Shown here one piece after another: positions 3,019 to 28,094 of a stretch of DNA of 47,853 nt; position 1 is the stretch's first letter; the number at the start of each line of letters is the position of its first letter. Under the pieces are notes generated by a model. It made no database searches and was not told the DNA's origin. It saw only the letters and a list, made by a program, of their open reading frames with translations. The translations under genes were made by a program, and so were the position numbers. Source of the stretch: Natronogracilivirga saccharolytica. GTDB lineage: Bacteria; Bacteroidota; Rhodothermia; Balneolales; Natronogracilivirgulaceae. The stretch covers positions 1 to 47,853 of the forward strand of contig NZ_JAFIDN010000016.1 in assembly GCF_017921895.1 (NCBI RefSeq), written 5' to 3'.

Positions 3019-3029
3019 ATGCATAAGCT
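2990..3029 (+). repeat. Perfect 20-bp tandem duplication over the TonB receptor start codon
   Basis: The 20-mer CATATTGTCATGCATAAGCT occurs twice without a gap (2990-3009 and 3010-3029). Each copy contains ATGCATAAGCT. The second ATG (3019) starts the receptor. The first (2999) opens a 10-codon reading frame in another frame that ends with TAG at 3029-3031, inside the receptor gene. Confidence 0.9.
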
Positions 3030-5952
3030 AGGTATAAAAGCTCTTCAAAAACTAAGATTACTTACGCTGTTAACCTCCTGTCTGCTGATTGCATTCGGGG
3101 CAAAAGCGACTTTTGCCGGCGAGGCCGGTCCATTTGCAGAAGCGACTTCCATGGAAGAAGAGCACGGATCGGTTACCGGCAGCGTTGTGGACGCTTCCAC
3201 TGACGAAACACTTCCCGGGGCCAATGTTGTACTGAAAAATACGTCAATAGGTGCCTCAACTGATGATGACGGCAATTTTACTCTTCGCAGACTTCCGGCA
3301 GGTGAGCAAACCCTGGAGATTCGTTACCTGGGATATGACAGAAAGGAAATTCAGGTTGAGGTTGTAGCTGATGAAACTATAGAACTGAACATCCAATTGA
3401 CCCCGGACCATGTTGAAGGCGAGGAAGTGATCATTCATACCCAGGCTCTGGGTCAGGCGCGGGCTATTCGCCAGCAACTCGGTTCTAATACGATAATGAA
3501 CGTAGTTTCTGAGACCCGGCTCCGTGAGTTGCCTGATGCCAATGCAGCCGAATCCATCGGCCGCTTGCCCGGGGTGTCGGTACTGCGGGATGCCGGTGAA
3601 GGGCAACGAATAGCTATTCGGGGTCTGGGCCCTGAATATAGTTCGATTACCATAGATGGCAATCAGATACCGGGAACACATGAGGACAGGTCCGTTGATT
3701 TGAGTATGATTTCGCCTGATATGCTGGCAGGTATTGAAGTGTATAAAACCATACGACCGGATATGGATGCTGATGCCATCGGAGGTTCTGTGAACTTCAG
3801 GATGGGCGGAGCTCCGGAAGAAACCCAATACCGCTTGAGTGCAGAGGGCGGGTACAATAACCATATTTCAGAAGTCAGCAACTACAAAATAAACTTTCGC
3901 GGAAATGACCGTTTTTTGGATAACCGTCTTGGCGTAATGGTTTCAGCTAATGTTCAGCAGGTAGATCGCAGCTCTCATGAACTTGCGGCAAACTATCAAG
4001 TGGAGCGGGATCGCCGGCCGGGAGAACCGCACGCACCTGTTAGTATTAATACACTGCGACTTCATGACAATAGTAACACCCGTCAGCGTTACAGCGGGGG
4101 GGTGTCACTGGACTGGGAGATGGAGAACAGCCACTTTTTCTTCAACAACACCTATAATTATCAGAACAGAGACGAAATAACCCAGCAGCGCCGATACAGT
4201 TTGGATAACAACAGACAGGAATGGTGGCCTCGTCATATTGAAAGAGAAATTGCCACGTTGAATTCCACTCTGGCCGGTCAGCATGACTGGAACGTGGTTC
4301 AGGTGGACTGGCGGCTGAACCGCAGTGTTACAACCAATGAAACACCATATGACAATCAGGCAAGGTTTTCAGAATCCAGCGCACTTGATCGGTCAGGGGT
4401 GAATTTACAGGAAATGCCCACAAAAGAACTGCCCGGCCTGGCTCATAACAGGATTGAACGGTCCAATCTTGAAGCACTGATACATCAGAATTCAGAGCGA
4501 AGACAGGAAAATCTTACCGCTTCTCTTGATTTGGAGTTTCCCGTTGTCGTTGGTAGACATATTTCCGGAAATTTTAAGTTTGGAGGTAAACACTATAACA
4601 ACTTCCGCGACCGCGAGACCACCGGTTATCAGGTGTTTCAATGGGAAATACCCGATCTTTACGGTATTGAAGGGATGCCCTTTGAGTGGGAGGTTGATGA
4701 TGCAGGAAGAGCGCTCATGGCTCCCTTTATTGAGGATCCTGATCACAGCTATACAATACTGGATGGTGACTATGAAATGGCTTTCATTCCCTCGATTAGT
4801 ACAGTTAATCAAATGTGGGATGATTATCGCGATGAGTACAGAACGATTCTGTATCCCCGCTTTAATGATTACGAGGCAAGAGAGCGAATTTCATCCGGTT
4901 ATGTGATGACGGAACTCAACATTGGCCCCCGTTTAATGATCCTGCCGGGTGTTCGCTACGAATATGAGCATTCCGATTATACCGCCATGGTGGGAACGTT
5001 TCAAAACAATCCGGAAGATATAGATGAGGAGCAGATGCAAGAAGATTTCAGAGATTCCACGGAATCGCGGAATATGGGCATGTGGTTTCCAATGGTCCAG
5101 GCACGATATCAAGTAACTTCCTGGATGGATATCAGGGCTGCCCGCACTGTAACAACCTCCCGTCCTTCATTCGGCAATGTTTCTCCACAGTTCAGGATTG
5201 ATTATGATGGCGGAAACGTCAACAGGGCTAACACGCAGATAAACCCATTGCGATCTACCAATTATGACCTGTTTCTGACCCTGCACCATAACCGATTCGG
5301 TTTGTTCACGGTTGGAGCATTTTATAAGGAAGTAGAAGATGTGATATACCAGCGCAACGCAAACATAATCGACCCCGAGGCCAAGGGGTTACCAGACAAC
5401 ACGCGACTTTTCAGGATCAGTGAACCGGTCAATAATGAAAATATGACCGAAGTCAGGGGTTTTGAGGTAGAATGGCAAAGTAACCTGACCCATTTGCCCT
5501 CACCATTCAATGGGCTGGTCGTCAATGCCAACTACTCACGTTTCCATTCCGAAGCGCACTATCATGGTTTTGAATTTGAACGAACTGCGGAAGGAATTGT
5601 AGGAGTAGATACCTTCCGGACGGCCCCGATGGTACACCAGGCTGACCATATCGCGAATGTTTCGCTGGGATATGACTATGGAGGCTTTTCTGCCCGTGTT
5701 TCCATGCAGTATCAGGGGGCTACGTTGCGGTCCATTGGAAGCCGGCCTGAAACGGATCAATATACTGATGAATATCTGCGATTTGATGCAAGCATTCGTC
5801 AGCGATTTTACAGTGATCAGCTTCACATTGTAGCCAACTTGCATAATATCACGAACCGGGAAGATCGTGCTTCTCAATTCACTTACGACAGACCCCGATC
5901 GATAGAATACTATGGAGCTGCGGTTGATTTAGGCGTAGAGTTCCGCTTTTAG
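3019..5952 (+). CDS. TonB-dependent outer-membrane receptor (no SusD partner)
   Basis: The protein has 977 residues. A signal peptide (1-33) is followed by a carboxypeptidase-regulatory-like beta-sandwich (about 50-127), a plug domain (about 150-265) and a 22-strand-type barrel ending in Phe (VDLGVEFRF). In the plug the blocks ITIDGN, SPDMLAGIEV and PDMDADAIGG are typical of the receptor class first described in Xanthomonas and Caulobacter that imports plant or algal oligosaccharides, rather than of classical SusC. No SusD follows. It probably carries the oligosaccharides made by the secreted proteins encoded next to it. The start at 3019 gives the full signal peptide but lies in the duplicated 20-mer and lacks a clear Shine-Dalgarno site. 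Confidence 0.92.
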   Translation: MHKLGIKALQKLRLLTLLTSCLLIAFGAKATFAGEAGPFAEATSMEEEHGSVTGSVVDASTDETLPGANVVLKNTSIGASTDDDGNFTLRRLPAGEQTLEIRYLGYDRKEIQVEVVADETIELNIQLTPDHVEGEEVIIHTQALGQARAIRQQLGSNTIMNVVSETRLRELPDANAAESIGRLPGVSVLRDAGEGQRIAIRGLGPEYSSITIDGNQIPGTHEDRSVDLSMISPDMLAGIEVYKTIRPDMDADAIGGSVNFRMGGAPEETQYRLSAEGGYNNHISEVSNYKINFRGNDRFLDNRLGVMVSANVQQVDRSSHELAANYQVERDRRPGEPHAPVSINTLRLHDNSNTRQRYSGGVSLDWEMENSHFFFNNTYNYQNRDEITQQRRYSLDNNRQEWWPRHIEREIATLNSTLAGQHDWNVVQVDWRLNRSVTTNETPYDNQARFSESSALDRSGVNLQEMPTKELPGLAHNRIERSNLEALIHQNSERRQENLTASLDLEFPVVVGRHISGNFKFGGKHYNNFRDRETTGYQVFQWEIPDLYGIEGMPFEWEVDDAGRALMAPFIEDPDHSYTILDGDYEMAFIPSISTVNQMWDDYRDEYRTILYPRFNDYEARERISSGYVMTELNIGPRLMILPGVRYEYEHSDYTAMVGTFQNNPEDIDEEQMQEDFRDSTESRNMGMWFPMVQARYQVTSWMDIRAARTVTTSRPSFGNVSPQFRIDYDGGNVNRANTQINPLRSTNYDLFLTLHHNRFGLFTVGAFYKEVEDVIYQRNANIIDPEAKGLPDNTRLFRISEPVNNENMTEVRGFEVEWQSNLTHLPSPFNGLVVNANYSRFHSEAHYHGFEFERTAEGIVGVDTFRTAPMVHQADHIANVSLGYDYGGFSARVSMQYQGATLRSIGSRPETDQYTDEYLRFDASIRQRFYSDQLHIVANLHNITNREDRASQFTYDRPRSIEYYGAAVDLGVEFRF

Positions 5953-6144: not shown

Positions 6145-7980
6145 ATGAATATGATCTCTACAAATTCAAACTATCAACAGTTTGGTGGAAAATCTTCTGC
6201 TGTGCTGTTTTTCATTCTGATGTTTACAATTTTAATTGGAAGTCAGTCCCTGAAAGCAGAAGAACTGGAAAGAATTCATGTTGAACCGGACAACTTTCCA
6301 GCTGAGATTGATGCCTTGAATCTCGCCATTGAAGAGCATGGCGGTGATGTGGTTTATGTATTGGAAAACGGAGCAACTTATTTTATAGAAGCTTCATTGG
6401 CTTTTGATCATCCCCTTCGATTCGAAGCTGAAGAAGTGCCCAGTGACAATCCACCTATCATTAGAGCTGCTACAGACCTTGAGGGTTCGTCCAACAGAAT
6501 TGGTATGTACGAGGATGACTTGCATGCTCGAGGTATCTTTTTTTATGGCATAGATGATTTAGGGGGTAAAGAAACGAATCAAAGAACCACTGGTGAAGAC
6601 ATTCGTCTGGTGTACGAGCACTGTTATCTTATGGGTGGCAGTAACTACTTCTGGTGGCTTGGTGCTGAGGGTACCACCCTCATCATCGAAGATACGCAAC
6701 TCGCCAATGCAGGGCGGCACACAAGCGCCGGGAACCAGCGTTTTGTTGACTTGAGAGGAAATGATACCGATTCGGTAATTGTCAGAAATAGCAGTATTTA
6801 CAACCTGAGTTCGCATCTGCTTCGTTTGGGTGGTGCTATAGTTGATCATATCTATTTTGACCATGTAACAGTCACAAATTTCTATAATGTATTTGGTGGC
6901 GGTATAAACTTGAAACTGAGCCCGGATATTACCATCAAAAACAGCCTCTTTCAAAACGTACGGTTCGACGGAGCCTGGGAGTCCAAGGATCTCGTAGGTG
7001 ATGACGGGTATGAGTATGACGGTGAGCGATATGTCTCGCAATCAGGTATGTTCTGGACTCAGACATGGGAAGACTTTGAAGACGCGGATGATCCCGATCA
7101 GCCAACCGATGAGGATCGAAGTATTGTGATAAAGAATAACAATTTTGGCGGATTGCCCGATGAAGAAGTTTTGGCAGTGTGGGACGATATAAATGATGAA
7201 GAGAATTATGTTACCGATCCCCAATGGCTTTGGGATAATCCGGATATCGATCCAGAGCATCCGGCATGGGGAGCCAGGGATACCATAGAGGTTGTGCGTA
7301 CTAACTTGCCGGCTAAAGACAGTCTGCTTGTTGCCTGGCAAGAAGCAGAAAAACCTTGGGTGGATATCAGAAACAATATATACGAAAATGTAGATTTCGA
7401 GGATCCTCCTTCAAGTTTTGGGGAATCGGTCCGTGCCTGGTGGTTCGAAACATCACCTCCGCGGCACTATGACCGATGGGATGATATTGCGGACAACAGC
7501 GGACAACGCTTTTATCATCCTGCACCCGGCACTCCTGTTGACAGCGAGAATACAGCTGCATGGTTTAGGAACTTAGCCTATAACACGGATTCGCCTTCTT
7601 ATACACATGCTGAAAATAATTTCCCGGTAGGCAATCTGAACTTCTTCCCTGAGATGAGACAGCGTTGGGAAGAGGGGGATTATCCTACATCAGCTGATGA
7701 ACCTGAAAAGGTTGCAAAAGATTTTGAATTGGTGGGCAACTATCCTAATCCTTTCAATCCTACGACGAATATTGTGTTTGAACTTGGCGAAACAGCGGAT
7801 GTTCAGATGCAGGTATACAATGTGATTGGACAGCAAGTAGCTGCTATGGAATTAGGCAGAAAGAGTCAGGGCCGTCATGAAGTAACATTTGATGCCTCAG
7901 ATCTCAGTAGTGGTGTCTATTTGGTTAGAATGCATGCCAATGAACAGGTTCAAACGATACAGATGACATTGGTTAAGTAA
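6145..7980 (+). CDS. Secreted beta-helix protein with T9SS sorting domain
   Basis: This 611-residue protein has a signal peptide (hydrophobic 21-36) and a central region rich in beta-helix-like repeats (about 45-300: short strands with IIRAA, VIVRNSSI, IYFDHVTV, ITIKNSLF), as in pectate-lyase-like and chondroitinase-B-like right-handed helices. A long Asp/Glu/Trp-rich segment follows, then a T9SS tail (from about 525, YPNPFNP). I cannot assign a CAZy family or catalytic residues. Location next to the TonB receptor suggests polysaccharide binding or cleavage at the cell surface. GGAG at 6140-6143 has ideal spacing to the ATG at 6151, so the true start may be two codons later. Confidence 0.75.
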   Translation: MNMISTNSNYQQFGGKSSAVLFFILMFTILIGSQSLKAEELERIHVEPDNFPAEIDALNLAIEEHGGDVVYVLENGATYFIEASLAFDHPLRFEAEEVPSDNPPIIRAATDLEGSSNRIGMYEDDLHARGIFFYGIDDLGGKETNQRTTGEDIRLVYEHCYLMGGSNYFWWLGAEGTTLIIEDTQLANAGRHTSAGNQRFVDLRGNDTDSVIVRNSSIYNLSSHLLRLGGAIVDHIYFDHVTVTNFYNVFGGGINLKLSPDITIKNSLFQNVRFDGAWESKDLVGDDGYEYDGERYVSQSGMFWTQTWEDFEDADDPDQPTDEDRSIVIKNNNFGGLPDEEVLAVWDDINDEENYVTDPQWLWDNPDIDPEHPAWGARDTIEVVRTNLPAKDSLLVAWQEAEKPWVDIRNNIYENVDFEDPPSSFGESVRAWWFETSPPRHYDRWDDIADNSGQRFYHPAPGTPVDSENTAAWFRNLAYNTDSPSYTHAENNFPVGNLNFFPEMRQRWEEGDYPTSADEPEKVAKDFELVGNYPNPFNPTTNIVFELGETADVQMQVYNVIGQQVAAMELGRKSQGRHEVTFDASDLSSGVYLVRMHANEQVQTIQMTLVK

Positions 7981-8699: not shown

Positions 8700-8823
8700 T
8701 TTATTTTATGTAAGAGCTTATAGGTATAGGGCAAGGAGTTGCTATAAGCATGTCTTAAAAATTTGCAACAACCATGCAAAAAGCTAAATAAAACAAAAAC
8801 AAAAGCAATAAAGAGGTTTGATC

Positions 8824-10917
8824 ATGACGAAAAAAATACTAACAATAACTTTTTCAATCGCATTAATTACATCTCTTGCCTGTTATGCATCTGCACAGGG
8901 ATCATTGATTGCAGATGAGCATAACATGGAATTCGATGCACATGCTACCTGGCATTTCACGAATCCTTCCAGTGTACTGTCGGATCAAAGGCCAGATGAC
9001 TCCAGACAAAATAGCTGGTACCAGGAACGGTCTATTTTGGAAGCTGTCGATACACTATCGTATAGCGGTATCTATTCGGTTGCTTTTAAAGGCAACCCCG
9101 AAACCGAAACGGATAATGTCAGAATGTCCATAGACGATCCTTATGCCCAGGGTGTCAGACTGCAACATGATGTTCATGTACGGGTTTTCGTACCGGAGTC
9201 CGCAGTGGATAAGATGAATGCACTCGTAATTTATGACATGTACGATACGGGTACGGGATTTGACTATGCTCAAACCGGTTATAATCCCAATGACATCACA
9301 CCCGGTGAATGGAACACCATAACCCATCACATTGACAGAGATACTGAAAAGGATTACGAAAATATTGCGCGTTTGGGTGTGAGAATGAATTATGATGAGG
9401 AGCAATCCGATGATCCTCCCATGATTTTTGTGGATTTTATCACAACCGATCCTGATGCTGCTCTTCATCCTCATCTCAGTACGCCACAAAATGTAACCAC
9501 GCCATACGTTGGTGAACACTCAGTGGAGTTAAACTGGGAAGAACCGACCGGAAATGATGAAGTTGAAGAATATGTGATTTATCGCGGTGATTTCGAGGAC
9601 ATAGCTCTTGAAGATTATGACGAAATAGGACGTACTGACGATCTGCAATACACCGATGACGGATTGCGGCACAGTACCGATTATAATTATCGCATTGTGG
9701 CCTTAAGTACAGATTCATTATACACGGATCCCTCTGATATTGCCTGGGCACAGACGGAAGCTATTGAATTTGAATCATTTGCGACATGGCACTTCACAAA
9801 TCCTTCCAATGTACTTTCAGATCAGAGACCTGAAAACAGGGAGGAAAACACATGGTACCAAGAACGTGCCATACTGGAAGCGGTAGATACATTGTCATAT
9901 AGTGGCATCAACTCGGTAGCATTCAAAGGAAATCCCGAGACTCTAAGTGATGATAATAACTTCCGTATGTCTATTGACAATCCTTATGCACAGGGGGTCC
10001 AGCTTCAGCAGGATATTCATGCCTACGTTTATGTACCGGAATCAGAGGTTGAAAAAATTGATGCTGTAGTTATTTTTCATATGTATGATCACGGTGGAGG
10101 GTTTGACTACAGCCAAACTAGTTACAATTTTTCAGGTGATGACGGTATAACACCAGGGGAATGGAATAAAATAACTCACTGGATCGACGAAGACCGAACA
10201 ATGAGAGACGATGTGAATCTGGCTCGCATGGGACTTCGGATCAATTTTGATACCGATTATGCCGATGACCCTCCTATGATGTTTGCAGACTTTGTAAGCA
10301 CTGATCCGGATGCCCCGCTTCACCCGCATTTAACCCCGCCCAGAGACGTATCTGCAACTGATATTACCGATTCATCAGCTGTACTTTTATGGGAAGAGCC
10401 GGAAGGAGATGATAGTGTGGAAGAGTATATTGTCTATCGCGGTGGTTTTGATGATGTGGCTTTCGAAGACTTTGAAGAAATCGACCGCACCGATAATACT
10501 ACTTACACTGACTCTGGATTAGAACCGGAAACCGATTATCACTATCGTATCGTTGCGGTAAGTACTGAGGGGCTTGTAACCGATCCGACAGATATCACAT
10601 GGGTAGAAACCGAAGCTTTGCCAACCGGAGTTGATAATGAAGAAACCCCGGTTGCTTTTGAGCTCAAAGGCAATTACCCAAATCCGTTCAACCCGGTCAC
10701 AAATATTGTGTATCAAATTCCCGAACAAGCAGAGGTAACCCTGAAAGTCTACAACGTTACCGGCCAGCTTGTTGCAACCCTGGTAGATAACTCGGTTCAG
10801 AGTGCGGGGCAATATACGGTAGAATTTGATGCCATTGGACTTGCTTCCGGTGTATATCTGTATCGACTGGAGGCGGGCGACTTTGTTCAAACGCAGCAAA
10901 TGATGCTAGTCAAGTAA
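8824..10917 (+). CDS. Secreted duplicated jelly-roll-like/FN3 protein with T9SS tail
   Basis: The 697-residue protein starts at ATG 8824 (AGAGG at 8812-8816) rather than the TTG two codons upstream. After a signal peptide (to about 25) it repeats one unit twice: a beta-sandwich-like module of about 185 residues (36-218 and 315-505, each with [31 protein letters not shown] and DDPPM) followed by a fibronectin type III domain (about 221-312 and 508-600). The T9SS domain starts near 620 with YPNPFNP. Duplicated beta-sandwich plus FN3 with no catalytic module suggests a polysaccharide-binding surface protein. I do not recognise the module as a named carbohydrate-binding family. Confidence 0.8.
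8929..10620 (+). repeat. Internal tandem duplication within the FN3 protein gene
   Basis: The gene carries two successive units of about 0.84 kb (8929-9756 and 9766-10620). At protein level they align almost end to end; at DNA level long stretches are still recognisable but many third positions differ. The duplication is therefore old rather than recent. Confidence 0.8.
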
Positions 10918-11002: not shown

Positions 11003-11092
11003 CTGTTATATACGGAAAAATAAATCTTGCATAGTACCATTTGCTATTTTTACACATTACATCCCCCTCATCTTTTTTTATCAAAAATTTTT

Positions 11093-13669
11093 ATGAATTA
11101 TCCACCCTCGTTCCAGTTTAGCAATTGGCTGGAACTATCTTGTTTTAAAAAGTCTGCACTTTTTTTTGCCGCTTTAGTTTTACCTTCAATGGTCATGTCG
11201 GAGGATAGCAATATGCCATTCGACAATGATTCCGGAACTGCAAATTCCGGTACTTGGAATTCATCCATTATCTATCTTGGCGATGATGGTCACCTGATCT
11301 ATCACTCTGATGAAGATGGTAACCGTATACCTGACTTTAGTCACGCCGGGTATCATGGCGGAGGCGTGGATTTGCCGGACGTACAGGTAGAAATAACTCT
11401 GGATCCTTCAGATTCCGGAGATGATACCGAACAAATACAACAGGCGCTTGATGACGTTGGCCAAGTGGAAAAAGATGAGAACGGGCACAGGGGTGCTGTG
11501 CTGCTGAACCCTGGTACATACCATATTTCTGACCGAATCATAATCGGTGAGAGCGGAGTTGTATTACGCGGATCCGGTGACGGGGAAGATCCGTCTTCCA
11601 ATTCGGTTATCCATGCTTCCAAAGACATAGGCAATGTTTCCATTCAGGTCGGGACCGGCAACGTAAACTGGGGTGCCGCCTCAGGGTCACCGATGACTGA
11701 AATTGTTACAGATTTTGTCACGGTAGGTTCCAGAGTGTTTGAAGTAAATGACGCAGACAGATTTGATGTCGGTGATGACATAATTTTATTCCATAGTGCA
11801 ACTGATGAATGGGTAGAAGCGGTTGACTTTGGTGGGCGTCCCTTTACAGCTCCGAATCCCTGGCGGGCCGGAGAGAGTAATCTGCATATCTACATGAAGA
11901 GAAAAATTGTTGGCATGGAGGGTAACAATATTGCCATTGATGTGCCAGTGTATAATCACCTGGACCGGTCCCTCTCTGAGGTATTGATGTACAAGCCTGA
12001 TTTCAGTGATCTGGTAACCGAGTCGGGGGTAGAGGATTTTCGACTTGTTCTGGAAAGTGATGACCCGCAATCTGACGAACACGGGAACCATGCCATTTAT
12101 TTTGATGGTGTGGAACACAGCTGGGCCGATGGCGTAACGGCAATGCATTTCAGACATACCGGATTCGGAACCAGATACGCAAGTTTCGTCACCATACAAA
12201 ATACACGTGCATTGGAACCGCACTCCCCGATTGATGGTGCCAGACGGTACAATTATAATGCCAGTATCCGTTCAAATAATATTTTATTTACTGAAAACAA
12301 GGCAACCGAAGGGAGACACTGTTTTTTATCCAATGGTACGGCTTCTGTTTCCGGAGTAGTATTTCACGACAGTGAATCATTTGGTGCTCATAATACATCG
12401 GAAGGTCACCGGCGCTGGAGCCAGGGATTGTTATTTGACAATCTCGTCTTCCGGGAGACCAATGATAACCGAATTATTGGTGTGTATAATCGCGGAGACT
12501 GGGGTACCCGGCACGGATGGAGTGCGGCTCACTCTGTAGTCTGGAATTCTGATCCGGATCAGGGCAACCGGATCTTTGTTCAGCAACCTCCAACGGCACA
12601 AAACTACGGTATCGCAAATCGTGGAATTGTGACGGGGGATGGACCCTGGGAAGGGCCCGATGGACATATTGAAGGTACAGGTGAGACACCAGCTATTGCA
12701 TCATTGTATGAAGCCCAGCTCGAAGAGCGCCTTGCACATGGCACGCCTCCCGATGCTCCTGGTCCGCTAAAAGTGATACCGGATGATGAGAGTAAAAATC
12801 TGAAGCTGGAGTGGACATATACCGGATTGTCCGAAAAGGATATTGTAATAGAACGATCGGTAAATCAGGGTGACTTCGAGGTTTTGGAAATCGTAAGCTC
12901 TGATGAGTCTGCATATACTGATGAAGATACGGGTGAAAATGAATATCGGTATCGCGTTGCCGCCAGGGATCAGGGGCGAATGTCAGCCTGGTCAAACCTG
13001 AGCGGATTTAATCAGAAATTATCAGCTTTTATTTTGCGAAGCCCGGCAACCGGTTCGCATGTTACAGTTACTGACGATCCTGATAAGGATTTGAGTTTAT
13101 GGTGGAATGATTTCGAGAGTGACCATGAGATTTCTTATACTTGGTATTTGGATCATGCAGACGGAGATTTTTCTGATGCCCTATTGGAACGGGATGTTGA
13201 TACTCAGCTTATTGAAGTTCCACATAGTGTCATTTACCAAAAGCTGAGTGAAGAAGGTTTGGATATCGACTCGACTTTCCACGGGCAATGGACGGTGAAG
13301 GCTACTGTCGGACCATCGGAAATTTGGGCCGATGAACCTTTTGAAATTTTCATAGAACGTGACGGAACCGGTACCCAATCCGGGGACAAAGATAAAACCC
13401 ATCCGGAAAACGTTGAGCTTCATCAAAACTATCCCAACCCGTTTAATCCAACAACGGTTATCAGGTTTGAAGTACCTCATACCGAACATGTGCTCCTTGA
13501 AGTATTCGATGTGTCAGGCAGAAAGATATCGACGCTGGTAGATGAAACTGTATCAGCGGGAACGCATCAGGTTACTTTCGATGCCTCTGGTTTATCATCT
13601 GGTTTGTACCTGTACAGGATGCAAATCAATCATCTTTTGCAAAGCAGGCAAATGATGTTTATTAAATAA
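11093..13669 (+). CDS. Secreted pectate-lyase-like beta-helix protein, paralog 1
   Basis: I place the start at ATG 11093 (858 residues) because the upstream TTG only adds an implausible extension and the ATG leads directly into a signal peptide (hydrophobic 18-35). The layout is an N-terminal block with GDDGHLIYHSDEDGNRIPDF (62-81), a pectate-lyase-3-like right-handed beta-helix (about 95-530, with GAVLLNPGTYHI and GVVLRGSGDG), an FN3 domain (about 550-640), an Ig-like SusE-type module (about 645-755) and a T9SS tail (from about 775). It is a close paralog of the next gene. KduI, KduD and GH88 downstream act on unsaturated uronates made by lyases, so a lyase role is the best inference. The catalytic residues and CAZy family are not known to me. 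Confidence 0.82.
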   Translation: MNYPPSFQFSNWLELSCFKKSALFFAALVLPSMVMSEDSNMPFDNDSGTANSGTWNSSIIYLGDDGHLIYHSDEDGNRIPDFSHAGYHGGGVDLPDVQVEITLDPSDSGDDTEQIQQALDDVGQVEKDENGHRGAVLLNPGTYHISDRIIIGESGVVLRGSGDGEDPSSNSVIHASKDIGNVSIQVGTGNVNWGAASGSPMTEIVTDFVTVGSRVFEVNDADRFDVGDDIILFHSATDEWVEAVDFGGRPFTAPNPWRAGESNLHIYMKRKIVGMEGNNIAIDVPVYNHLDRSLSEVLMYKPDFSDLVTESGVEDFRLVLESDDPQSDEHGNHAIYFDGVEHSWADGVTAMHFRHTGFGTRYASFVTIQNTRALEPHSPIDGARRYNYNASIRSNNILFTENKATEGRHCFLSNGTASVSGVVFHDSESFGAHNTSEGHRRWSQGLLFDNLVFRETNDNRIIGVYNRGDWGTRHGWSAAHSVVWNSDPDQGNRIFVQQPPTAQNYGIANRGIVTGDGPWEGPDGHIEGTGETPAIASLYEAQLEERLAHGTPPDAPGPLKVIPDDESKNLKLEWTYTGLSEKDIVIERSVNQGDFEVLEIVSSDESAYTDEDTGENEYRYRVAARDQGRMSAWSNLSGFNQKLSAFILRSPATGSHVTVTDDPDKDLSLWWNDFESDHEISYTWYLDHADGDFSDALLERDVDTQLIEVPHSVIYQKLSEEGLDIDSTFHGQWTVKATVGPSEIWADEPFEIFIERDGTGTQSGDKDKTHPENVELHQNYPNPFNPTTVIRFEVPHTEHVLLEVFDVSGRKISTLVDETVSAGTHQVTFDASGLSSGLYLYRMQINHLLQSRQMMFIK

Positions 13670-13804
13670 AAGTCTGATACTTTACTCATGAACTTTTTTA
13701 AAAAGAGTTATTTAATCAAAAAAAGTACATGGCAGGCGTAATTAAATCTGCCTTTACAGATTCTGATCCTTTAAATACTCCTTTCAAATAAAACTGCACT
13801 AAAT

Positions 13805-16387
13805 ATGTATTTTAAAAACAATTTACCGGAAATGCCGGAGGGTTACATTCCTGTTTGTAATTACCTTGCAGTTTTATTAATACTTGCCTTTATATTTCCA
13901 ACTTTGCTATTTGCTGGTAATTCAGATATCTCCGTCAGCAGAGAAAGTATTTCACCTGCCAACGGCACATGGAATTCATCCATAATTTATCATGGTGATG
14001 ACGGCCATTTGATCTATCACTCCGATGAAGATGGTAACCGCATCCCTGATTTCAGTCATGCAGGGTATCGTGGTGGAGGCGTGGATTTGCCGGAAGTACA
14101 GGTAGTAAAAACATTGGATCCCTCAGATTCCGGAGATGACACCGAACAAATACAGCAAGCACTTGACGAAGTTGGTCAAATGGGAAAAGATGAAAATGGG
14201 CACAGGGGGGCTTTGTTGTTAAACCCTGGTACATACCACATTTCTGATCGAATAATAATTCGTGACAGCGGAGTGGTGTTACGTGGGTCCGGTGATGGTG
14301 ATGATCCTTCTTCCAACTCCATCGTCTATGCTGACAAAGACATAGGTAATATTTCCATTCAGATTGGAAGTGGTAATGTAGACTGGCTTATTGCACAAGG
14401 CTCACCTTTGACAGAAATAAGCACAGAGATGGTATTGGTTGGCTCAAGAACATTTGAAGTTGAAAATGCGGATGGCTTTAATGTTGGTGATGATATCATT
14501 ATTTGGCACCAGGCCACGAATGAATGGGTAGAGGCTGTTGACTATGGAGGCCTTCCGCTCTCAGAGCCGGACCCCTGGGAAGCAGGTCAAAATAGCCTTC
14601 ATATCCAAATGAAACGAGAAATCGTTGGCATGGAAAACAATGTCATTGCCGTCGATGTCCCCGTCTATAATCATCTTGATCGTAAACTCTCCCAAGTTCA
14701 GGTCTTCAAACCTGATTTCAGTGAACTGGTAACCGAGTCGGGGGTAGAGGATTTTCGACTTGTACTGGAGAGTGAGGGACCTGAATCCGATGATCATGGG
14801 TTACATGCTATTATTTTTGATGGTGTTGAGGACAGCTGGGCTGATGGCGTAACGGTGATGCAGTTCAGACTTTTCGGATTTTCAACAACCAATTCAAGTT
14901 TTGTTACCATACAGAATTCACGCGCACTGGATCCCCATTCACCTATCGCCGGCTCCAGGCGTTACAATTTTAATGTCAGTGCTCGTTCAAATAATATTTT
15001 CTTTTCAGGAAACAAGGCAACGGAAGGAAGGCATTGTTTTGTTTCCAACGGTACGGCTTCTGCTTCCGGTGCTGTCTTCCATAACAGTGTATCCTATGGA
15101 GCTAACGGGGCTTCTGAAGGCCACCGGCACTGGAGTCAGGGAATGCTGTTCGATAATCTTGAATTCAGAGAGACAAACAGAGAAAGAGTTGTTGGTTTAT
15201 ATAATCGTGGAAATTGGGGTACAAGACACGGCTGGAGTGCGGCTCACTCTGTCGTGTGGCATACAGATCCGGGAAATAACAACTACATGGTTGTTCAGCA
15301 ACCTCCCACAGCACAAAACTACGGCATCGCAAATCGTGGGTATGTGACGGGTGATGGACCCTGGGAAGGTCCCGATGGACATATTGAAGGTACAGGTGAG
15401 ACTCCTGAAATCATGTCATTGTATGAAGCCCAGCTCGAAGAGCGCCTTGCACATGGAACGCCTCCCGATACTCCCGGTCCGCTAAAAGTGACACCGGTTG
15501 ATGACAATGAAAACCTGAAGCTTGAGTGGTCCTTTCTCGGATTGACCGAAATGGACATTGTAATTGAACGATCAGTAAATCAGGGTGACTTCGAGGTATT
15601 GGAAGTCGTAAGCTCTGATGTGTCTGCCTATACCGATGAAGACACAGGAGAAAATGAGTATCGGTATCGTATTGCAGCAGAGGATCAGGGACGAATGTCA
15701 GCCTGGTCAAATCAAAGCGGCTTCAATATGAAACTGTCGGATTTTATACTGAGAGATCCGCAAAGCGGGTCGCATGAGACTGTTACTGACGACCCTGACA
15801 AAAAGTTGAGTTTGTGGTGGAATGAAGTTGAAAGCGATTTTGATATTACATATACCTGGTATTTGGATCGTGCAAATGGGGATTTTTCGGATGCCCTTTT
15901 GGAAAAAGAAATTGATATTCAACTTGTCGAAGTTCCCCATAGCGTCATTTACCAAAAGTTGAGTGAAAAAGGAGTGGATATCGACTCGACATTCCACGGA
16001 CAATGGACGGTAAAGGCCACTGGTGGGCCATTGGAAGTCTGGGCTGAGAAACCCTTTGAGATCTTTATTCAACGTGACGGAACTGATACCCAAAGTTCAG
16101 AGGAAAGGGATAAAGCCCATCCGGAAAGCGTTGAGCTTCATCAAAATTATCCCAACCCGTTTAATCCCACTACAATTATCAGGTTTGAATTACCTCATAC
16201 CGAGCAGGTTCGTCTTGAAGTATTCGACGTGTCAGGGAGGAAGATATCAACTCTTCTGGATGAAACTGTTTCAGCGGGAATGCATGAGGTTACTTTCGAC
16301 GCCTCTGGTTTATCATCTGGTATGTATCTGTACAAGATGCAAACCAATAATTTTTTGCAAACCAGACAAATGATGTTTATCAAATAA
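13805..16387 (+). CDS. Secreted pectate-lyase-like beta-helix protein, paralog 2
   Basis: The 860-residue protein has the same order of parts as paralog 1: signal peptide (about 17-38), DEDGNRIPDF block, beta-helix, FN3, Ig-like module and T9SS tail (from about 776, YPNPFNP). Most blocks align without gaps. Invariant stretches include TESGVEDFRLVLES, WGTRHGWSAAHSVVW, QQPPTAQNYGIANRG and GDGPWEGPDGHIEGTGETP. Differences gather in the signal peptide and around helix turns near residues 190-210 and 280-330, as expected if the two differ in substrate fit. It lies 135 bp after paralog 1 and 151 bp before kduI, so the pair directly precedes the unsaturated-uronate pathway. Conserved His, Arg and Trp in the WGTRHGWS region are candidates for catalysis. 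Confidence 0.82.
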   Translation: MYFKNNLPEMPEGYIPVCNYLAVLLILAFIFPTLLFAGNSDISVSRESISPANGTWNSSIIYHGDDGHLIYHSDEDGNRIPDFSHAGYRGGGVDLPEVQVVKTLDPSDSGDDTEQIQQALDEVGQMGKDENGHRGALLLNPGTYHISDRIIIRDSGVVLRGSGDGDDPSSNSIVYADKDIGNISIQIGSGNVDWLIAQGSPLTEISTEMVLVGSRTFEVENADGFNVGDDIIIWHQATNEWVEAVDYGGLPLSEPDPWEAGQNSLHIQMKREIVGMENNVIAVDVPVYNHLDRKLSQVQVFKPDFSELVTESGVEDFRLVLESEGPESDDHGLHAIIFDGVEDSWADGVTVMQFRLFGFSTTNSSFVTIQNSRALDPHSPIAGSRRYNFNVSARSNNIFFSGNKATEGRHCFVSNGTASASGAVFHNSVSYGANGASEGHRHWSQGMLFDNLEFRETNRERVVGLYNRGNWGTRHGWSAAHSVVWHTDPGNNNYMVVQQPPTAQNYGIANRGYVTGDGPWEGPDGHIEGTGETPEIMSLYEAQLEERLAHGTPPDTPGPLKVTPVDDNENLKLEWSFLGLTEMDIVIERSVNQGDFEVLEVVSSDVSAYTDEDTGENEYRYRIAAEDQGRMSAWSNQSGFNMKLSDFILRDPQSGSHETVTDDPDKKLSLWWNEVESDFDITYTWYLDRANGDFSDALLEKEIDIQLVEVPHSVIYQKLSEKGVDIDSTFHGQWTVKATGGPLEVWAEKPFEIFIQRDGTDTQSSEERDKAHPESVELHQNYPNPFNPTTIIRFELPHTEQVRLEVFDVSGRKISTLLDETVSAGMHEVTFDASGLSSGMYLYKMQTNNFLQTRQMMFIK

Positions 16388-16538: not shown

Positions 16539-17369
16539 ATGGAAATCAGGCATTCTGTTGGAAAAAGAGAAGTAAAAAATATGAAATCGCAAGATCTTAG
16601 AGATCATTTTCTGGTCGAAGATCTAATGAAGGATAATAAGATTCAAATGGTTTATAGCCATTATGATCGAATAATAATTGGAGGAGCTGTTTCTGACGGT
16701 AAGGAGCTAGAGCTTGAAACATCAGATGAGTTGAAATCCGACTATTTTCTTGAAAGAAGGGAGTTGGGTATTATTCTCATATCAGGTGAAGGCCTGGTAA
16801 CAGTTGACGGTGAAAAGTATACATTGGAAGAAAAAGAGTGTCTGTATGTCGGCCGGGGAAAAAAATCTGTTGTTTTCAGCGGTAGAGGCAAGAACGAAAA
16901 AGCCAAATTCTACTTCACCTCAACTCCTGCCCACACCGAGTATCCTGTAGCAAAGATGGGTTTATCAGAAGCTGAGTCACAGTACATGGGATCCGCTGAG
17001 CGATCTAATGAACGAACAATTAATAAATACATACATCCGGATGGTATCAAAAGTTGCCAGCTCATGATGGGATTTACTGTGCTAAAAAAAGGAAGTATTT
17101 GGAATACCATGCCTCCACATCTCCATGAAAGAAGAATGGAAGCCTATTTTTACTGCGATCTTCCAGAAGATGACCGTATATGGCACTTTATGGGGGAATT
17201 CGAAGAAACAAGACATATGTTGGTCGCTAATAATCAGGCCATCATTTCCCCACCATGGTCAATACATTCCGGAGCTGGTACCAGTAACTATTGTTTTGTT
17301 TGGGCAATGGCAGGTGAAAATCAAAGTTTTTCGGATATGGACGCTGTGCCATTGGACAAACTGAAATAG
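16539..17369 (+). CDS. kduI: 5-dehydro-4-deoxy-D-glucuronate isomerase
   Basis: KduI converts 4-deoxy-L-threo-5-hexosulose uronate, the open form of the unsaturated uronate released by GH88 enzymes, to 3-deoxy-D-glycero-2,5-hexodiulosonate in the cytoplasm. The 276-residue length and cupin layout match the E. coli enzyme. The zinc ligands are all present: His194, His196 and Glu201 in PHLHERRMEAYFY, and His243 in SPPWSIHSGAG. The start at 16539 (MEIRHSV) aligns with the usual N-terminus, so the internal ATG at 16581 is not needed. kduD follows in the same direction after 180 bp, and the tandem lyase-like genes precede it. Confidence 0.95.
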   Translation: MEIRHSVGKREVKNMKSQDLRDHFLVEDLMKDNKIQMVYSHYDRIIIGGAVSDGKELELETSDELKSDYFLERRELGIILISGEGLVTVDGEKYTLEEKECLYVGRGKKSVVFSGRGKNEKAKFYFTSTPAHTEYPVAKMGLSEAESQYMGSAERSNERTINKYIHPDGIKSCQLMMGFTVLKKGSIWNTMPPHLHERRMEAYFYCDLPEDDRIWHFMGEFEETRHMLVANNQAIISPPWSIHSGAGTSNYCFVWAMAGENQSFSDMDAVPLDKLK

Positions 17370-17549
17370 AAAAGGAATTCTTGTGTTTTAAAATGTTCGA
17401 TTGATGTTGTCACGAGCAATGTCATGGCCATTTATAACGATATGATGTGCATATATGTCATTGCTATAGTTCTTCCATCGGACATTTTATGACACTTTTC
17501 ATGAATAATTTTATTCTTAATAAAACCTATATAGAAAAGCGTAAGTAAT

Positions 17550-18314
17550 ATGATTGAGAAATTGTTTTCACTCGAAGAAAAAACGGCATTAGTCACCGGA
17601 GCCAGCAGGGGGCTTGGGCAAGCCATGGCTATTGCTCTTGCAGATGCGGGAGCCAATGTAATTTGTGCGGGTTCACGTCCAGGTAGCGCTGATGAAACGG
17701 CCGGGATAATAGAAAAAAAAGGACGAAAAAGCTGGTCTGTATTTGGAGATCTGTCTTCTTCTTCAGAAGTAGAAAAATTGGCCGAAGATGCAAATTCATG
17801 TAGCAGGACTATCGATATTCTGGTAAATAATGCAGGCACCATTGAACGTTTCCCGGCAGCGGAATATCCAACGGAAGCCTGGGAGAGAGTCATACAGACA
17901 AACCTCAATTCTGTCTATTTTCTGAGCCGTTATTTTGGTGCAAAGATGATTGAAAGAAAGCAGGGAAAAATTGTCAATACAGCATCTTTACTCTCCTTTT
18001 CAGGTGGTATTACCGTACCTTCATATGCCGCATCAAAACATGCTGTCGCCGGACTTACCAAAGCACTTGCCAATGAATGGGCTGTTAAGAATATTCAGGT
18101 CAATGCGATTGCTCCTGGATATTTTAAAACCGATAACACTCAGGCGTTGCAGAATAACAAAGAACGATTTGCTGAAATTTCTGCCAGAATTCCGGCAAGC
18201 CGCTGGGGTATTCCGGAAGACTTAAGCGGAGCAGTTATATTCCTGAGCTCAAAGGCCTCTGATTACGTAAATGGCCATATCTTAACGGTAGATGGTGGGT
18301 GGATGGCGAGATAG
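17550..18314 (+). CDS. kduD: 2-dehydro-3-deoxy-D-gluconate 5-dehydrogenase
   Basis: KduD reduces the KduI product to 2-keto-3-deoxygluconate with NAD(P)H. It is a classical short-chain dehydrogenase of 254 residues with the cofactor motif TGASRGLG (16-23), NNAG (93-96), catalytic Ser146 and Tyr159-x3-Lys163. The length and the C-terminal VDGGWMAR fit KduD better than generic SDRs, and pairing with kduI makes the call strong. The 180-bp gap from kduI may contain its own promoter, although none is clear. The next step, KDG kinase, is not encoded in the window. Confidence 0.92.
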   Translation: MIEKLFSLEEKTALVTGASRGLGQAMAIALADAGANVICAGSRPGSADETAGIIEKKGRKSWSVFGDLSSSSEVEKLAEDANSCSRTIDILVNNAGTIERFPAAEYPTEAWERVIQTNLNSVYFLSRYFGAKMIERKQGKIVNTASLLSFSGGITVPSYAASKHAVAGLTKALANEWAVKNIQVNAIAPGYFKTDNTQALQNNKERFAEISARIPASRWGIPEDLSGAVIFLSSKASDYVNGHILTVDGGWMAR

Positions 18315-18469
18315 AGGTGCATTTTTTAAAGCATTGAATGCAAGTTCCGTGCTTTTTTAAATGATGGGCAAGCTGTAGGGAAAGATTATCAACTCTGATA
18401 AATCAACATTTAAATATTTTTTCAATACAGTGTTTATTGAGAAAAAAACATTCACTTAATATCAAAAAA

Positions 18470-19708
18470 ATGGCTTTTAAAATTAACTCAGTTAGTAAGT
18501 ATTTTCTTAGTAGTGCCTGCTGCTTTCTGACTGCCCTTGTATTTTTGAGCATTTCATGCTCACCCAATGAAGAAAATGAAAATCTGAGCAGCAGGATATT
18601 TGATTTTTCTGATCAACAGTTAAGGTACATGATAGAGGAGTTGAATGAGGCCATTCAAGAGGATCCGGAGGGGAAAAAAGTAAGTCCGAGATCTGTAAGA
18701 GATGGAGAAATGTTTGTAGTACCCTCGTCGGACTGGACCAGCGGTTTCTTGCCGGGTATGCTTTGGATGATGTATGAATATCACGGCGACGAATACTGGA
18801 TGGAAAAGGCTGTTGAACGAACAGCTCCGATAGAGCGTGAAAAGCTGAATGATGGAACACATGATATGGGCTTCAAGGTCTTCAATAGTTTCGGCCAGGG
18901 TTACAGACATACAAATGACGAAGAATATTACGATATCATCATTGAAGCTTCCAATACGTTGATCACACGTTACAATGAAACAGTTGGCGCCATTCGTTCC
19001 TGGGATTTTAACAGAGACCGGTGGGATTTTCCTGTTATTATAGACAATATGATGAATTTGGAAATGTTGTTTTGGGCTAGCGAAGTGACTGGTGATAAAA
19101 AGTACTTTGATATTGCAAAACAACACGCCTGGACTACCTATGAAGAGCACTTCAGAGATGATTACGGCTCTTACCATGTTGTTGACTTTGATACAACCAC
19201 TGGTGAGTCAAGAAAGAAAATCACTCATCAGGGAACTGCTGACGAATCAGCCTGGGCCCGGGGACAGGCCTGGGGATTGTACGGCTTCGTTATGACGTAC
19301 CGGTATACCGAAACTCCCGAGTTTCTCGAATTGGCTGAGGAGATAGCGGATTATATGTTATATCATCCCAATATGCCTGAGGATCTGGTGCCGTTTTGGG
19401 ATTATGATGCTCCGGGAATACCTGATGCTGCCAGGGATGCCTCTGCAGCTGCAATAATGGCATCAGCTCTTTATGAACTTAGTGAAAAAGTCCCGGAAAA
19501 ACAGGAATATTACCGGGAGACAGCCGATCAGGTTCTGGATAATCTGTACAGTAACTATCGTTCGCAACCCATAGGCAGTAATCACGGTTTTTTATTGGAC
19601 AGCAGTACAGGTCATCATCCACATGGATATGAAATAGATACACCACTTATTTATGCGGACTACTACTTGCTTGAAGCAGCATTGAGAAAAAAAAGCTTAA
19701 GGGAATAA
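18470..19708 (+). CDS. GH88 unsaturated glucuronyl hydrolase, lipoprotein (copy 1)
   Basis: I choose ATG 18470 (412 residues) over the upstream TTG at 18437. It gives a lipoprotein signal with the cysteine in SISCSPNE, so the enzyme is probably membrane-anchored in the periplasm. The (alpha/alpha)6 barrel of family 88 is recognised from DWTSGFLPGMLW, THDMGF and DNMMNLEMLFWAS. The two catalytic acids of the family correspond to Asp132 in HDMGF and Asp192 in IIDNMMN. It removes the 4,5-unsaturated uronate from the non-reducing end of lyase products by hydrating the double bond. The freed sugar feeds KduI/KduD encoded just upstream. A second GH88 lies at 26883 on the other strand. Confidence 0.92.
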   Translation: MAFKINSVSKYFLSSACCFLTALVFLSISCSPNEENENLSSRIFDFSDQQLRYMIEELNEAIQEDPEGKKVSPRSVRDGEMFVVPSSDWTSGFLPGMLWMMYEYHGDEYWMEKAVERTAPIEREKLNDGTHDMGFKVFNSFGQGYRHTNDEEYYDIIIEASNTLITRYNETVGAIRSWDFNRDRWDFPVIIDNMMNLEMLFWASEVTGDKKYFDIAKQHAWTTYEEHFRDDYGSYHVVDFDTTTGESRKKITHQGTADESAWARGQAWGLYGFVMTYRYTETPEFLELAEEIADYMLYHPNMPEDLVPFWDYDAPGIPDAARDASAAAIMASALYELSEKVPEKQEYYRETADQVLDNLYSNYRSQPIGSNHGFLLDSSTGHHPHGYEIDTPLIYADYYLLEAALRKKSLRE

Positions 19709-19903: not shown

Positions 19904-21226
19904 ATGCCGGAAGTATCTTTCGACACACAGGGGTATGATTATAAAGCCGAAACCACCACTTCAGCCATTGCGACTATGGAAAACCAACAGCCCAGTATAG
20001 CCTTTGAGCAGGTCATTGAGCGTGGATGTGGCATCGATATCCACAAGGAAGTTTTGGTGGCCACGATACGTGGCCGTGGCATCAAAGAACAAACGCGTTC
20101 TTTTGATACGTTCACCGGATCTTTGGAGCGGTTGCGCGACTGGCTCAAGCAACATGGGATTACCCATATAGCCATGGAAAGTACCACTGTGTACTGGAAG
20201 CCGGTCTACAATATTCTGGAGGAGGACTTTGAGATCTTGCTGGTCAATGCCCGGCACATCAAAAACGTACCGGGCCAGAAGACCGACAAAAAGGACAGCC
20301 GGTGGATCACCAAGCTGTTGTTAAGCGGATTGTTGAAAGGCAGCTTTGTCCCGCCCGGGCATATCCGCCAGCTTCGGGATCTGACGCGCTACAAACGCAA
20401 GGTCATCGAACAGATCTCCTCGGAAAAGAACCGGGTGCACAAGGTGCTGGAGGATGCCAACATCAAACTCTCGAGTGTGGTGAGCAATCTCAGCGGGGTA
20501 ACGGCCGCCAAGATCATCGATGCGATGATGGACGGGCAGGAAGATGTGGCCGAGTTGGTCAAACTGCGTCACGGCAAGATGCACAGCAGTCCGCAGAAGC
20601 TGGCCGCCTCGCTGCAGGGCCGCCTTACCGATCACCACCGGTTTATGCTGCGGACCTACAAAGAGTCCATAGAAAGCAAGAAAGCGATCATAGCAAAGCT
20701 GGATGAACAAATAGACCGACAACTGGCGGAAAGTGAACTGGTGCTCGACGCGGAGTTACTGGCTACCATCCCGGGAGTAGGCAAAGAAGCCGCGGCCTAC
20801 ATCCTTGCCGAAATAGGCGATAATATGGAGCAGTTTCCCGATGAGCAGCATTTGAGCAGCTGGGCGGGGATGTCGCCGGGCAGCAATGAGTCGGCCGGTA
20901 AAAAAAAAAGCACACGAATAACCCATGGCGATAAATACCTGAAGATTCTGCTGGTCCAGTGCGCCTGGGCGGCAACGCGAACCAAAAACACGTATCTGCG
21001 AAGTAAATATGAGAGTCTGGTAGGAAGAAGAGGCAAAAAAAGAGCTTTGGTAGCCGTAGGACGCAAGATCCTGATTGCCGCCTACTTCATCCTCAAAGAC
21101 AAGCAGGCCTACAAGGAACTTGGACCCATGTACTTGCAGCAACGAAACAAAAACCGAAAAATAGACCGGCACCTCAAACAACTTGAGGAACTGGGTGTAC
21201 AAGTGGAAATCAAAGATGTTGCCTAA
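19904..21226 (+). CDS. IS110-family transposase (DEDD/serine type)
   Basis: This is a 440-residue transposase of the family that recombines through a guide (bridge) RNA. The N-terminal RuvC-like domain carries the DEDD set: Asp45 in GIDIHK, Glu92 in AMEST, and Asp128 and Asp131 in TDKKDSRW. After a coiled helical linker (about 160-280) the C-terminal Tnp domain has PGVGKEAAAYILAEIGD (290-306) and the likely catalytic Ser330 in NESAGK. The gene is intact. An internal ATG at 19976 (MENQQPS) matches the usual family N-terminus better than 19904, which would read through sequence shared with the repeat. It splits the uronate cluster between GH88 and glcG-like genes. Confidence 0.93.
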   Translation: MPEVSFDTQGYDYKAETTTSAIATMENQQPSIAFEQVIERGCGIDIHKEVLVATIRGRGIKEQTRSFDTFTGSLERLRDWLKQHGITHIAMESTTVYWKPVYNILEEDFEILLVNARHIKNVPGQKTDKKDSRWITKLLLSGLLKGSFVPPGHIRQLRDLTRYKRKVIEQISSEKNRVHKVLEDANIKLSSVVSNLSGVTAAKIIDAMMDGQEDVAELVKLRHGKMHSSPQKLAASLQGRLTDHHRFMLRTYKESIESKKAIIAKLDEQIDRQLAESELVLDAELLATIPGVGKEAAAYILAEIGDNMEQFPDEQHLSSWAGMSPGSNESAGKKKSTRITHGDKYLKILLVQCAWAATRTKNTYLRSKYESLVGRRGKKRALVAVGRKILIAAYFILKDKQAYKELGPMYLQQRNKNRKIDRHLKQLEELGVQVEIKDVA

Positions 21227-26882: not shown

Positions 26883-28094
26883 TCAACTGCAGAAATCCGG
26901 ATACTTCTTTTGCAAAGCCTCTTCACGAAGCAACGCTTCAACGAAGTAGTAATCTGCGTATATGATCGGTTGATCAACTTCTCCGCCTTCATCACGGTTT
27001 CTGTTACCAACCGAATGCCAGAGGATCGCCACATTGGATCCGTCAGACCGATAGTTGTTTACTAAAGAATTAAGTATGTTCACGGCTTTTTCACGATAAA
27101 ACTCTCTGTCGACAGGCTCCGTAACCAATTCTGAAAGTTCAAGCATTGCTGATGCGGCTATGGCAGCGGCTGAAGCATCCTTTTCTTCATCGGGTATGTT
27201 GGGTGCGTCAAAATCCCAATAGGGAACCAGGTCATCCGGCAGTTCCTTGATGAACTTGTCAGCAAGCATCCGGGCGGTGTCCTTGAATTCATCCATTCCG
27301 GTTTCCCGGTACGTCATGGTAAAACCATATATCCCCCAAGCCTGACCACGCGCCCACATGGATTCATCAAATGCACCCTGATGTGTGACAGCCTCCTCGA
27401 AATCTCCGGTTTCCTTATTGAACAGAGCAACATGGTAAGTGGATGAGTTGGAACGAATATTGTGTTCAGCAGTATGTCTCGCATGATTGATTGCCGCTTC
27501 GCGATAGGATGTATCTTCGGTGGTACTTGATGCCCAGAATAGATACTCCAAATTGATCATGTTGTCGACAATGGTGTTGTGCCTGCCATCGTAGCGTTCA
27601 ATTGCAAATGGCCAGCTTAAAATGGTTCCGACTGTTGGATTGTAAAGCGACATGAGTAGGCCAGCACCGTCAACCAGAATCGGATGATAATCTTCGTTAC
27701 CAGTCAGGCGCAAACCATTTCCAAAACTGTTATACATCATGAATCCCAGATCATGGTTTATGTTTTCCCAACGTCTGAGCGGTTCCAGTTTCATGTTCCA
27801 GTGATGTGCATGTTCCCTCCACTTTTCCTCTTCAGTGGATTCGTAAGCATACCATAACAGACCAGGCCAGAATCCGCTGGTCCATCCATGTATGCCGGTC
27901 GTATTCCAGCCCTTCTCACCGGGAGGAATATTTCTTGGAATCTGATCCTCGTCAGCATCCAGAAGATCAAGCGCCTGATCCATCTGTTCAACTGAAAAAT
28001 CAAGCCATTTCTCCGTGTCCAGACATGTTCTGTTTTCCGTCGTACAGGAGGTCAAAAAAAAAGTGGCTATAAGCAAAAAAATAGTGTATTTCAT
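26883..28094 (-). CDS. GH88 unsaturated glucuronyl hydrolase, lipoprotein (copy 2)
   Basis: The 403-residue protein has a short lipoprotein signal (ATFFLTSC, Cys17) and the GH88 barrel. The catalytic pair is Asp115 in NHDLGF and Asp177 in VDNMINLEYLFWAS. It shares the fold and both acids with copy 1 at 18470 but is clearly divergent, so the two probably prefer different linkages or oligomer lengths. Its ATGAAATA start is the end of a 97-bp sequence that is also found in front of the IS at 19803. It lies 219 bp downstream of uxuA and 121 bp upstream of the SDR operon, so it probably has its own leader. Confidence 0.92.
   Translation of the reverse strand: MKYTIFLLIATFFLTSCTTENRTCLDTEKWLDFSVEQMDQALDLLDADEDQIPRNIPPGEKGWNTTGIHGWTSGFWPGLLWYAYESTEEEKWREHAHHWNMKLEPLRRWENINHDLGFMMYNSFGNGLRLTGNEDYHPILVDGAGLLMSLYNPTVGTILSWPFAIERYDGRHNTIVDNMINLEYLFWASSTTEDTSYREAAINHARHTAEHNIRSNSSTYHVALFNKETGDFEEAVTHQGAFDESMWARGQAWGIYGFTMTYRETGMDEFKDTARMLADKFIKELPDDLVPYWDFDAPNIPDEEKDASAAAIAASAMLELSELVTEPVDREFYREKAVNILNSLVNNYRSDGSNVAILWHSVGNRNRDEGGEVDQPIIYADYYFVEALLREEALQKKYPDFCS

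Follow-up and report, generated by a model that had tools for sequence, protein, structure and literature searches.

A tandem pair of candidate polyuronate lyases from a divergent sister branch of PL29 in a uronate-degrading gene cluster of Natronogracilivirga saccharolytica

Introduction

BT3328, which belongs to polysaccharide lyase family PL29, acts at the cell surface as an endolyase on chondroitin sulfate and hyaluronan (PMC6994673), and two genes assigned to PL29 by dbCAN belong to an operon that alginate induces in Verruconatronum alginivorum (PMC13274419). Here, we analysed two tandem genes of Natronogracilivirga saccharolytica that lie in a stretch of 47,853 nucleotides (the window), which is an entire contig (C16, NZ_JAFIDN010000016.1) of a 3.75-Mb genome. 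Their products resemble BT3328 by full-length domain homology with common N- and C-terminal signatures, by a predicted secreted or surface location and by neighbouring genes for GH88 and uronate catabolism. They differ from it in that its N-terminal region of ~300 aa is missing and a T9SS tail is present instead, in that their family sits on a separate long branch, far below the cut-off of the BT3328 equivalog model, and in that they are found in polyuronate rather than glycosaminoglycan surroundings.

Other proteins are also close to this pair. A group of 560-aa PL29-like proteins (L055-L063) and fusions of PL6-like and PL29-like parts (L053 and L054) belong to the same superfamily as the window domain, but in our tree PL29, rather than the window pair, is their closer relative; the 560-aa group co-occurs with the window family at one locus, in genome G345. 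The fusions (from genomes G313 and G352) are 986-aa proteins with an N-terminal part that is PL6-like by eye and a C-terminal PL29-like domain. DUF6298 proteins (PF19815) from Bacteroides, Rufibacter and other Bacteroidota have the window domain family as their N-terminal half, but differ by their long C-terminal DUF6298 region, by the lack of two histidines described below (SEGH and HGW) and by the absence of GH88 and PF05426 genes nearby. Finally, PL6 (PF14592) and PL5/PL17/PL38-type lyases (PF05426) are frequent direct neighbours in related loci: the window family showed no homology to PL6 in a profile comparison and no PF14592 match in a Pfam scan, and it was compared with PF05426 by the Pfam scan of the family alone.

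Results

The window carries a uronate-degrading cluster, in which we distinguished the following features:

3019..5952, + strand: TonB-dependent receptor heading the cluster (TIGR01782 over its cut-off; 62% identical receptor in the syntenic locus of genome G384)
6145..7980, + strand: 611-aa T9SS protein, possibly beta-helical, a rival lyase candidate (L001 and G384 keep it next to the domain; neither PL6 nor PL29)
8818..10917, + strand: 699-aa FN3-containing T9SS protein, a putative surface glycan-binding protein (PF00041 and PF18962; L001 neighbour 74% identical)
11093..13669, + strand: protein 1, 858 aa, predicted to be secreted, PL29-related, with a T9SS tail (open reading frame list)
11207..12769, + strand: PL29-related domain of protein 1
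13430..13633, + strand: T9SS sorting domain of protein 1, residues 780-847 (PF18962, E 1.6e-8)
13805..16387, + strand: protein 2, 860 aa, paralogue of protein 1 (open reading frame list)
13922..15484, + strand: PL29-related domain of protein 2
16148..16363, + strand: T9SS sorting domain of protein 2, residues 782-853 (PF18962, E 4e-10)
16539..17369, + strand: kduI, 5-dehydro-4-deoxy-D-glucuronate isomerase (NCBIfam PRK00924, 421.7 bits, cut-off 250)
17550..18314, + strand: kduD-type dehydrogenase of the SDR type (TIGR01832, 336.9 bits, just under the cut-off of 338.85)
18437..19708, + strand: GH88-type unsaturated uronyl hydrolase with a lipoprotein-like N-terminus (PF07470, E 1.8e-10, over cut-off)
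26883..28094, - strand: second GH88-type protein (PF07470, E 1.1e-11)

UxuA, UxaC, UxaE and parts of a TRAP transporter are also encoded in the window. An IS110-type transposase gene (19904-21226, +) lies immediately 3' of the first GH88 gene, and two similar genes of one cluster (29511-30917 and 34514-35926, both -) look by eye like 6-phosphogluconate dehydrogenases. A LarA-like protein (36013-37263, -) most resembles a nickel-dependent putative hexonate epimerase, with 198.9 bits versus a cut-off of 500.

A sequence-only reading of this DNA had described two tandem paralogous proteins of about 860 residues, with T9SS tails, directly ahead of kduI, kduD and GH88 genes, and all of this was confirmed: the two genes and the three that follow (16539-19708) share one strand, and PF18962 exceeds its Pfam cut-off in both proteins. 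The frame of protein 1 is open from 11027 to 13669 (+), with an in-frame TTG at 11027 and the ATG at 11093 that gives 858 aa. The FN3 and Ig-like modules that had also been attributed to the pair were not recovered, as we obtained no fn3 match and a single sub-threshold SusE match (E 0.0037), in protein 1 only. The two domains, each ~520 aa long, are 76% identical, and dN was 0.14 for a dS of 0.91 between the tandem copies (820 aligned codons), so that purifying selection appears to act on both.

The gene order around the pair is also found elsewhere: a Balneolales MAG contig (L001) conserves the 6145-protein, the 8078-protein, the 8818-protein and the domain in that order, and genome G384 keeps the order receptor, 6145-protein, domain, domain. 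Of 395 phylum genomes, 36 hold homologues of the protein at 6145-7980, some of them matched by the tail only, and these homologues belong to no named family. This protein could itself cleave a glycan; when considered as a hidden PL6, profile comparison showed only the common T9SS tail.

Among the window proteins scanned with Pfam and NCBIfam, no recognised lyase was detected, as had been stated before. Neither PF05426 nor PL6 was found in the genome, and searches for PF08787 (PL7/18) and PF02278 (PL8) gave no match there and none in control genomes either; one heparinase II/III-like gene is present on contig C15. Since this genome lacks PF05426 and PL6, the tandem pair is the most promising source of the missing lyase activity, and this part of the earlier reading is further strengthened by the PL29 homology and by the lyase, PL6 and GH88 neighbours of relatives described below.

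When the two proteins were searched as single sequences against Pfam, NCBIfam, PHROGs and PDB, the T9SS tail was the sole match. We therefore turned to profiles, using a family alignment of 36 domain sequences and PL29 sequences drawn from genomes, one of which exceeds the BT3328 equivalog cut-off. Scans of viral contigs, made to deepen the alignment, yielded three relatives only. With hhalign, the family profile matched the PL29 profile with a probability of 99.9 over 438 columns, versus 0.1 for PL6, 3.3 for the 6145-type family and at most 0.8 for five column-shuffled profiles. HMMs built without the domain family gave similar indications: a model of PL29 plus the 560-aa relatives scored the domains of proteins 1 and 2 at 104.9 and 98.8 bits and a model of PL29 alone at 41.0 and 46.7 bits, while the maxima over 2000 shuffled sequences were 7.2 and 4.4 bits, respectively. 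NF058554 (BT_3328_fam, PL29 endolyase) matched 25 of the 36 relatives in a collinear manner (positions 396-632 and near 808-830 of 840); protein 2 scored 10.7 bits against a curated cut-off of 1100, and the domain of protein 1 gave no match. Family and PL29 have in common an N-terminal PDFSxAGY signature, a C-terminal SLYxAQLxxR and, in addition, GxE, SW and LFD.

In a phylogenetic tree, the 36 family rows form a branch of length 1.74 (support 100/100, with a long-branch warning), opposite PL29 and the 560-aa group, and the window domains do not group with PL29 proper. On these comparisons, the domain family is homologous to PL29 over its full length and is best called a divergent, uncharacterised sister branch of it, not PL29 proper. 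Calling the pair a new polysaccharide lyase family, as had been proposed, was thus too strong, because the domain branches beside an existing CAZy family.

The beta-helix assigned to the pair from its sequence has indirect support only. It is suggested by the homology to PL29, by a match to the profile of 7chu (a 'putative pectin lyase'; E 1.7e-8) that covers only the start of that profile (positions 69-144) and by PF12708 matches in 3 of the 36 relatives. An AlphaFold2 model of the domain, built on 6 sequences, reached a mean pLDDT of 38.6, too low for a fold search.

The domain was matched in 48 of 395 phylum genomes, a few of these matches being weak, partial and N-terminal, and plasmid records added Paenibacillus, Streptomyces, Rufibacter and Bacteroides, with the domain forming the N-terminal half of DUF6298 proteins in the latter two. 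We then compared the surroundings of 42 loci, with statistics that assume uniform gene placement and independent genomes, though several of these genomes are close relatives. Within 10 kb of the domain in group I (Balneolota/f25-type loci, a grade and not a clade), a PF05426 lyase was found at 9 of 17 loci (0.18 expected), GH88/105 at 6 of 17 (0.23 expected) and PL6 at 6 of 16 (0.09 expected). The DUF6298-linked group served as an internal control: PF05426, GH88 and heparinase-type genes were all absent within 10 kb of its 19 loci. One locus, in G345, is alginate-type and reads PL6, domain, PF05426 lyase, sugar kinase-like and aldolase-like genes (both named by eye from sequence), SDR, PL17-like lyase, 560-aa PL29-like protein, PL6; a PF05426 lyase is also close to the domain in G384. 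Among the DUF6298 loci (L041, L042 and others), those of Rufibacter adjoin GH140 and GH43, which suggests a pectin side-chain (RG-II-like) locus.

The family alignment also pointed to candidate catalytic residues:

12398..12409, + strand: SEGH motif of protein 1, residues 436-439, with a candidate catalytic or metal-binding His (aligned to FESH in PL29 and to LDQH in the 560-aa relatives)
12500..12544, + strand: WGTRHGWSAAHSVVW block of protein 1 (GxHGW in most of the family, absent from the DUF6298-linked group)
15113..15124, + strand: SEGH motif of protein 2, residues 437-440, with the same putative role (by alignment)
15215..15259, + strand: WGTRHGWSAAHSVVW block of protein 2 (by alignment)

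In PL29, the counterpart of the SEGH histidine (residue 439 of protein 1, 440 of protein 2) lies in FESH, and in most of the 560-aa group it lies in LDQH. The histidine of the HGW in the WGTRHGWSAAHSVVW block (residue 475 of protein 2) is retained only by group I and by the majority of the intermediate group, with a PL29 histidine a few residues from that position (PNHxxxLxIWN), and both it and the SEGH histidine are lost in the DUF6298-linked group. Since the HGW histidine is lost there and the SEGH histidine aligns with PL29, SEGH is the better candidate; the WGTRHGWSAAHSVVW block (WGTRHGW), earlier suggested to hold the catalytic site, is conserved in part of the family only. A GRH histidine likewise aligns, but five same-order relatives of Balneolaceae type (L013-L017; genomes G119, G108, G171, G203 and G336) have GRR instead. 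Their regions L072-L075 show housekeeping-type neighbours by eye, with GH88 and PF05426 absent nearby, so function may vary within the family. We take these histidines as leads, that of SEGH with a putative catalytic role.

Since known lyases lie beside many of the relatives, the domain could be accessory: a non-lytic surface glycan-binding module or a spent lyase fold, with another enzyme, for instance the 6145-7980 protein, doing the cutting. That protein's family does stay adjacent to the domain in L001 and G384, the latter with its nearby PF05426 lyase, and the loss of both histidines in the DUF6298-linked group makes inactive versions plausible. Yet both histidines are retained in group I, purifying selection is apparent on the two window copies and no homology to lyases can be recognised in the 6145 family, so that we consider an accessory role unlikely.

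Discussion

The PL29 homology, the T9SS tails, the gene order and the association of relatives with uronate-lyase loci, all observed here, are the basis on which we read the pair as lyases. Judging from these features, both proteins are probably polyuronate lyases, displayed on the cell surface or secreted, from a deep, uncharacterised branch that is sister to PL29. Both would be exported through Sec and the T9SS; they would then bind an acidic polysaccharide, with a glucuronan- or alginate-like polyuronate as the most likely one, along a right-handed beta-helical groove and cleave it by beta-elimination, presumably in endo mode and with the SEGH histidine as catalytic residue. The TonB receptor would then take up the unsaturated oligosaccharides, GH88 would strip their unsaturated terminal residue, and KduI and KduD would pass the resulting 4-deoxy-ketouronate to central metabolism. 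Fold, activity, substrate and mode of action are what we infer for the pair.

Could these proteins instead be ordinary PL29 enzymes acting on hyaluronan or chondroitin-like polymers? Their nearest characterised relative, BT3328, does so, and GH88 serves glycosaminoglycan pathways too. This is nevertheless improbable in our view, considering the long branch that sets the family apart from PL29, the PL6, PL17-like and PF05426 lyases that accompany its relatives, the fit of UxaC, UxuA, UxaE and the TRAP transporter in the window with plain uronates, and the dbCAN-assigned PL29 gene pair in the alginate-induced Verruconatronum operon. We give similarly little credence to a uronate C5-epimerase or beta-helix hydrolase that would alter or hydrolyse the polymer without elimination, since the PF12708 matches (a rhamnogalacturonase A/epimerase, pectate-lyase-like family) and weak, non-significant matches of a mannuronan 5-epimerase profile are set against PDB matches confined to the N-terminal cap region and a full-length homology that points to PL29.

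Beyond the polyuronate lyase activity that we propose for the pair, a bolder view is possible, although we hold it as doubtful: the 36-sequence branch, found in Bacteroidota, Bacillota and Actinomycetota, may be an unrecognised lyase family beside PL29 that acts specifically on plain polyuronates of the glucuronan or alginate kind and that serves here as the sole depolymerase, in place of the more usual PL5/PL38/PL6 enzymes.

Altogether, widespread, unannotated secreted proteins are now tied to a known lyase family, with a function that can be tested and a histidine proposed as catalytic. Should this function be confirmed, annotation could be extended to many polysaccharide-locus proteins now called 'hypothetical' or DUF6298-type, and the PL29 group would reach from animal glycosaminoglycans to plain polyuronates.
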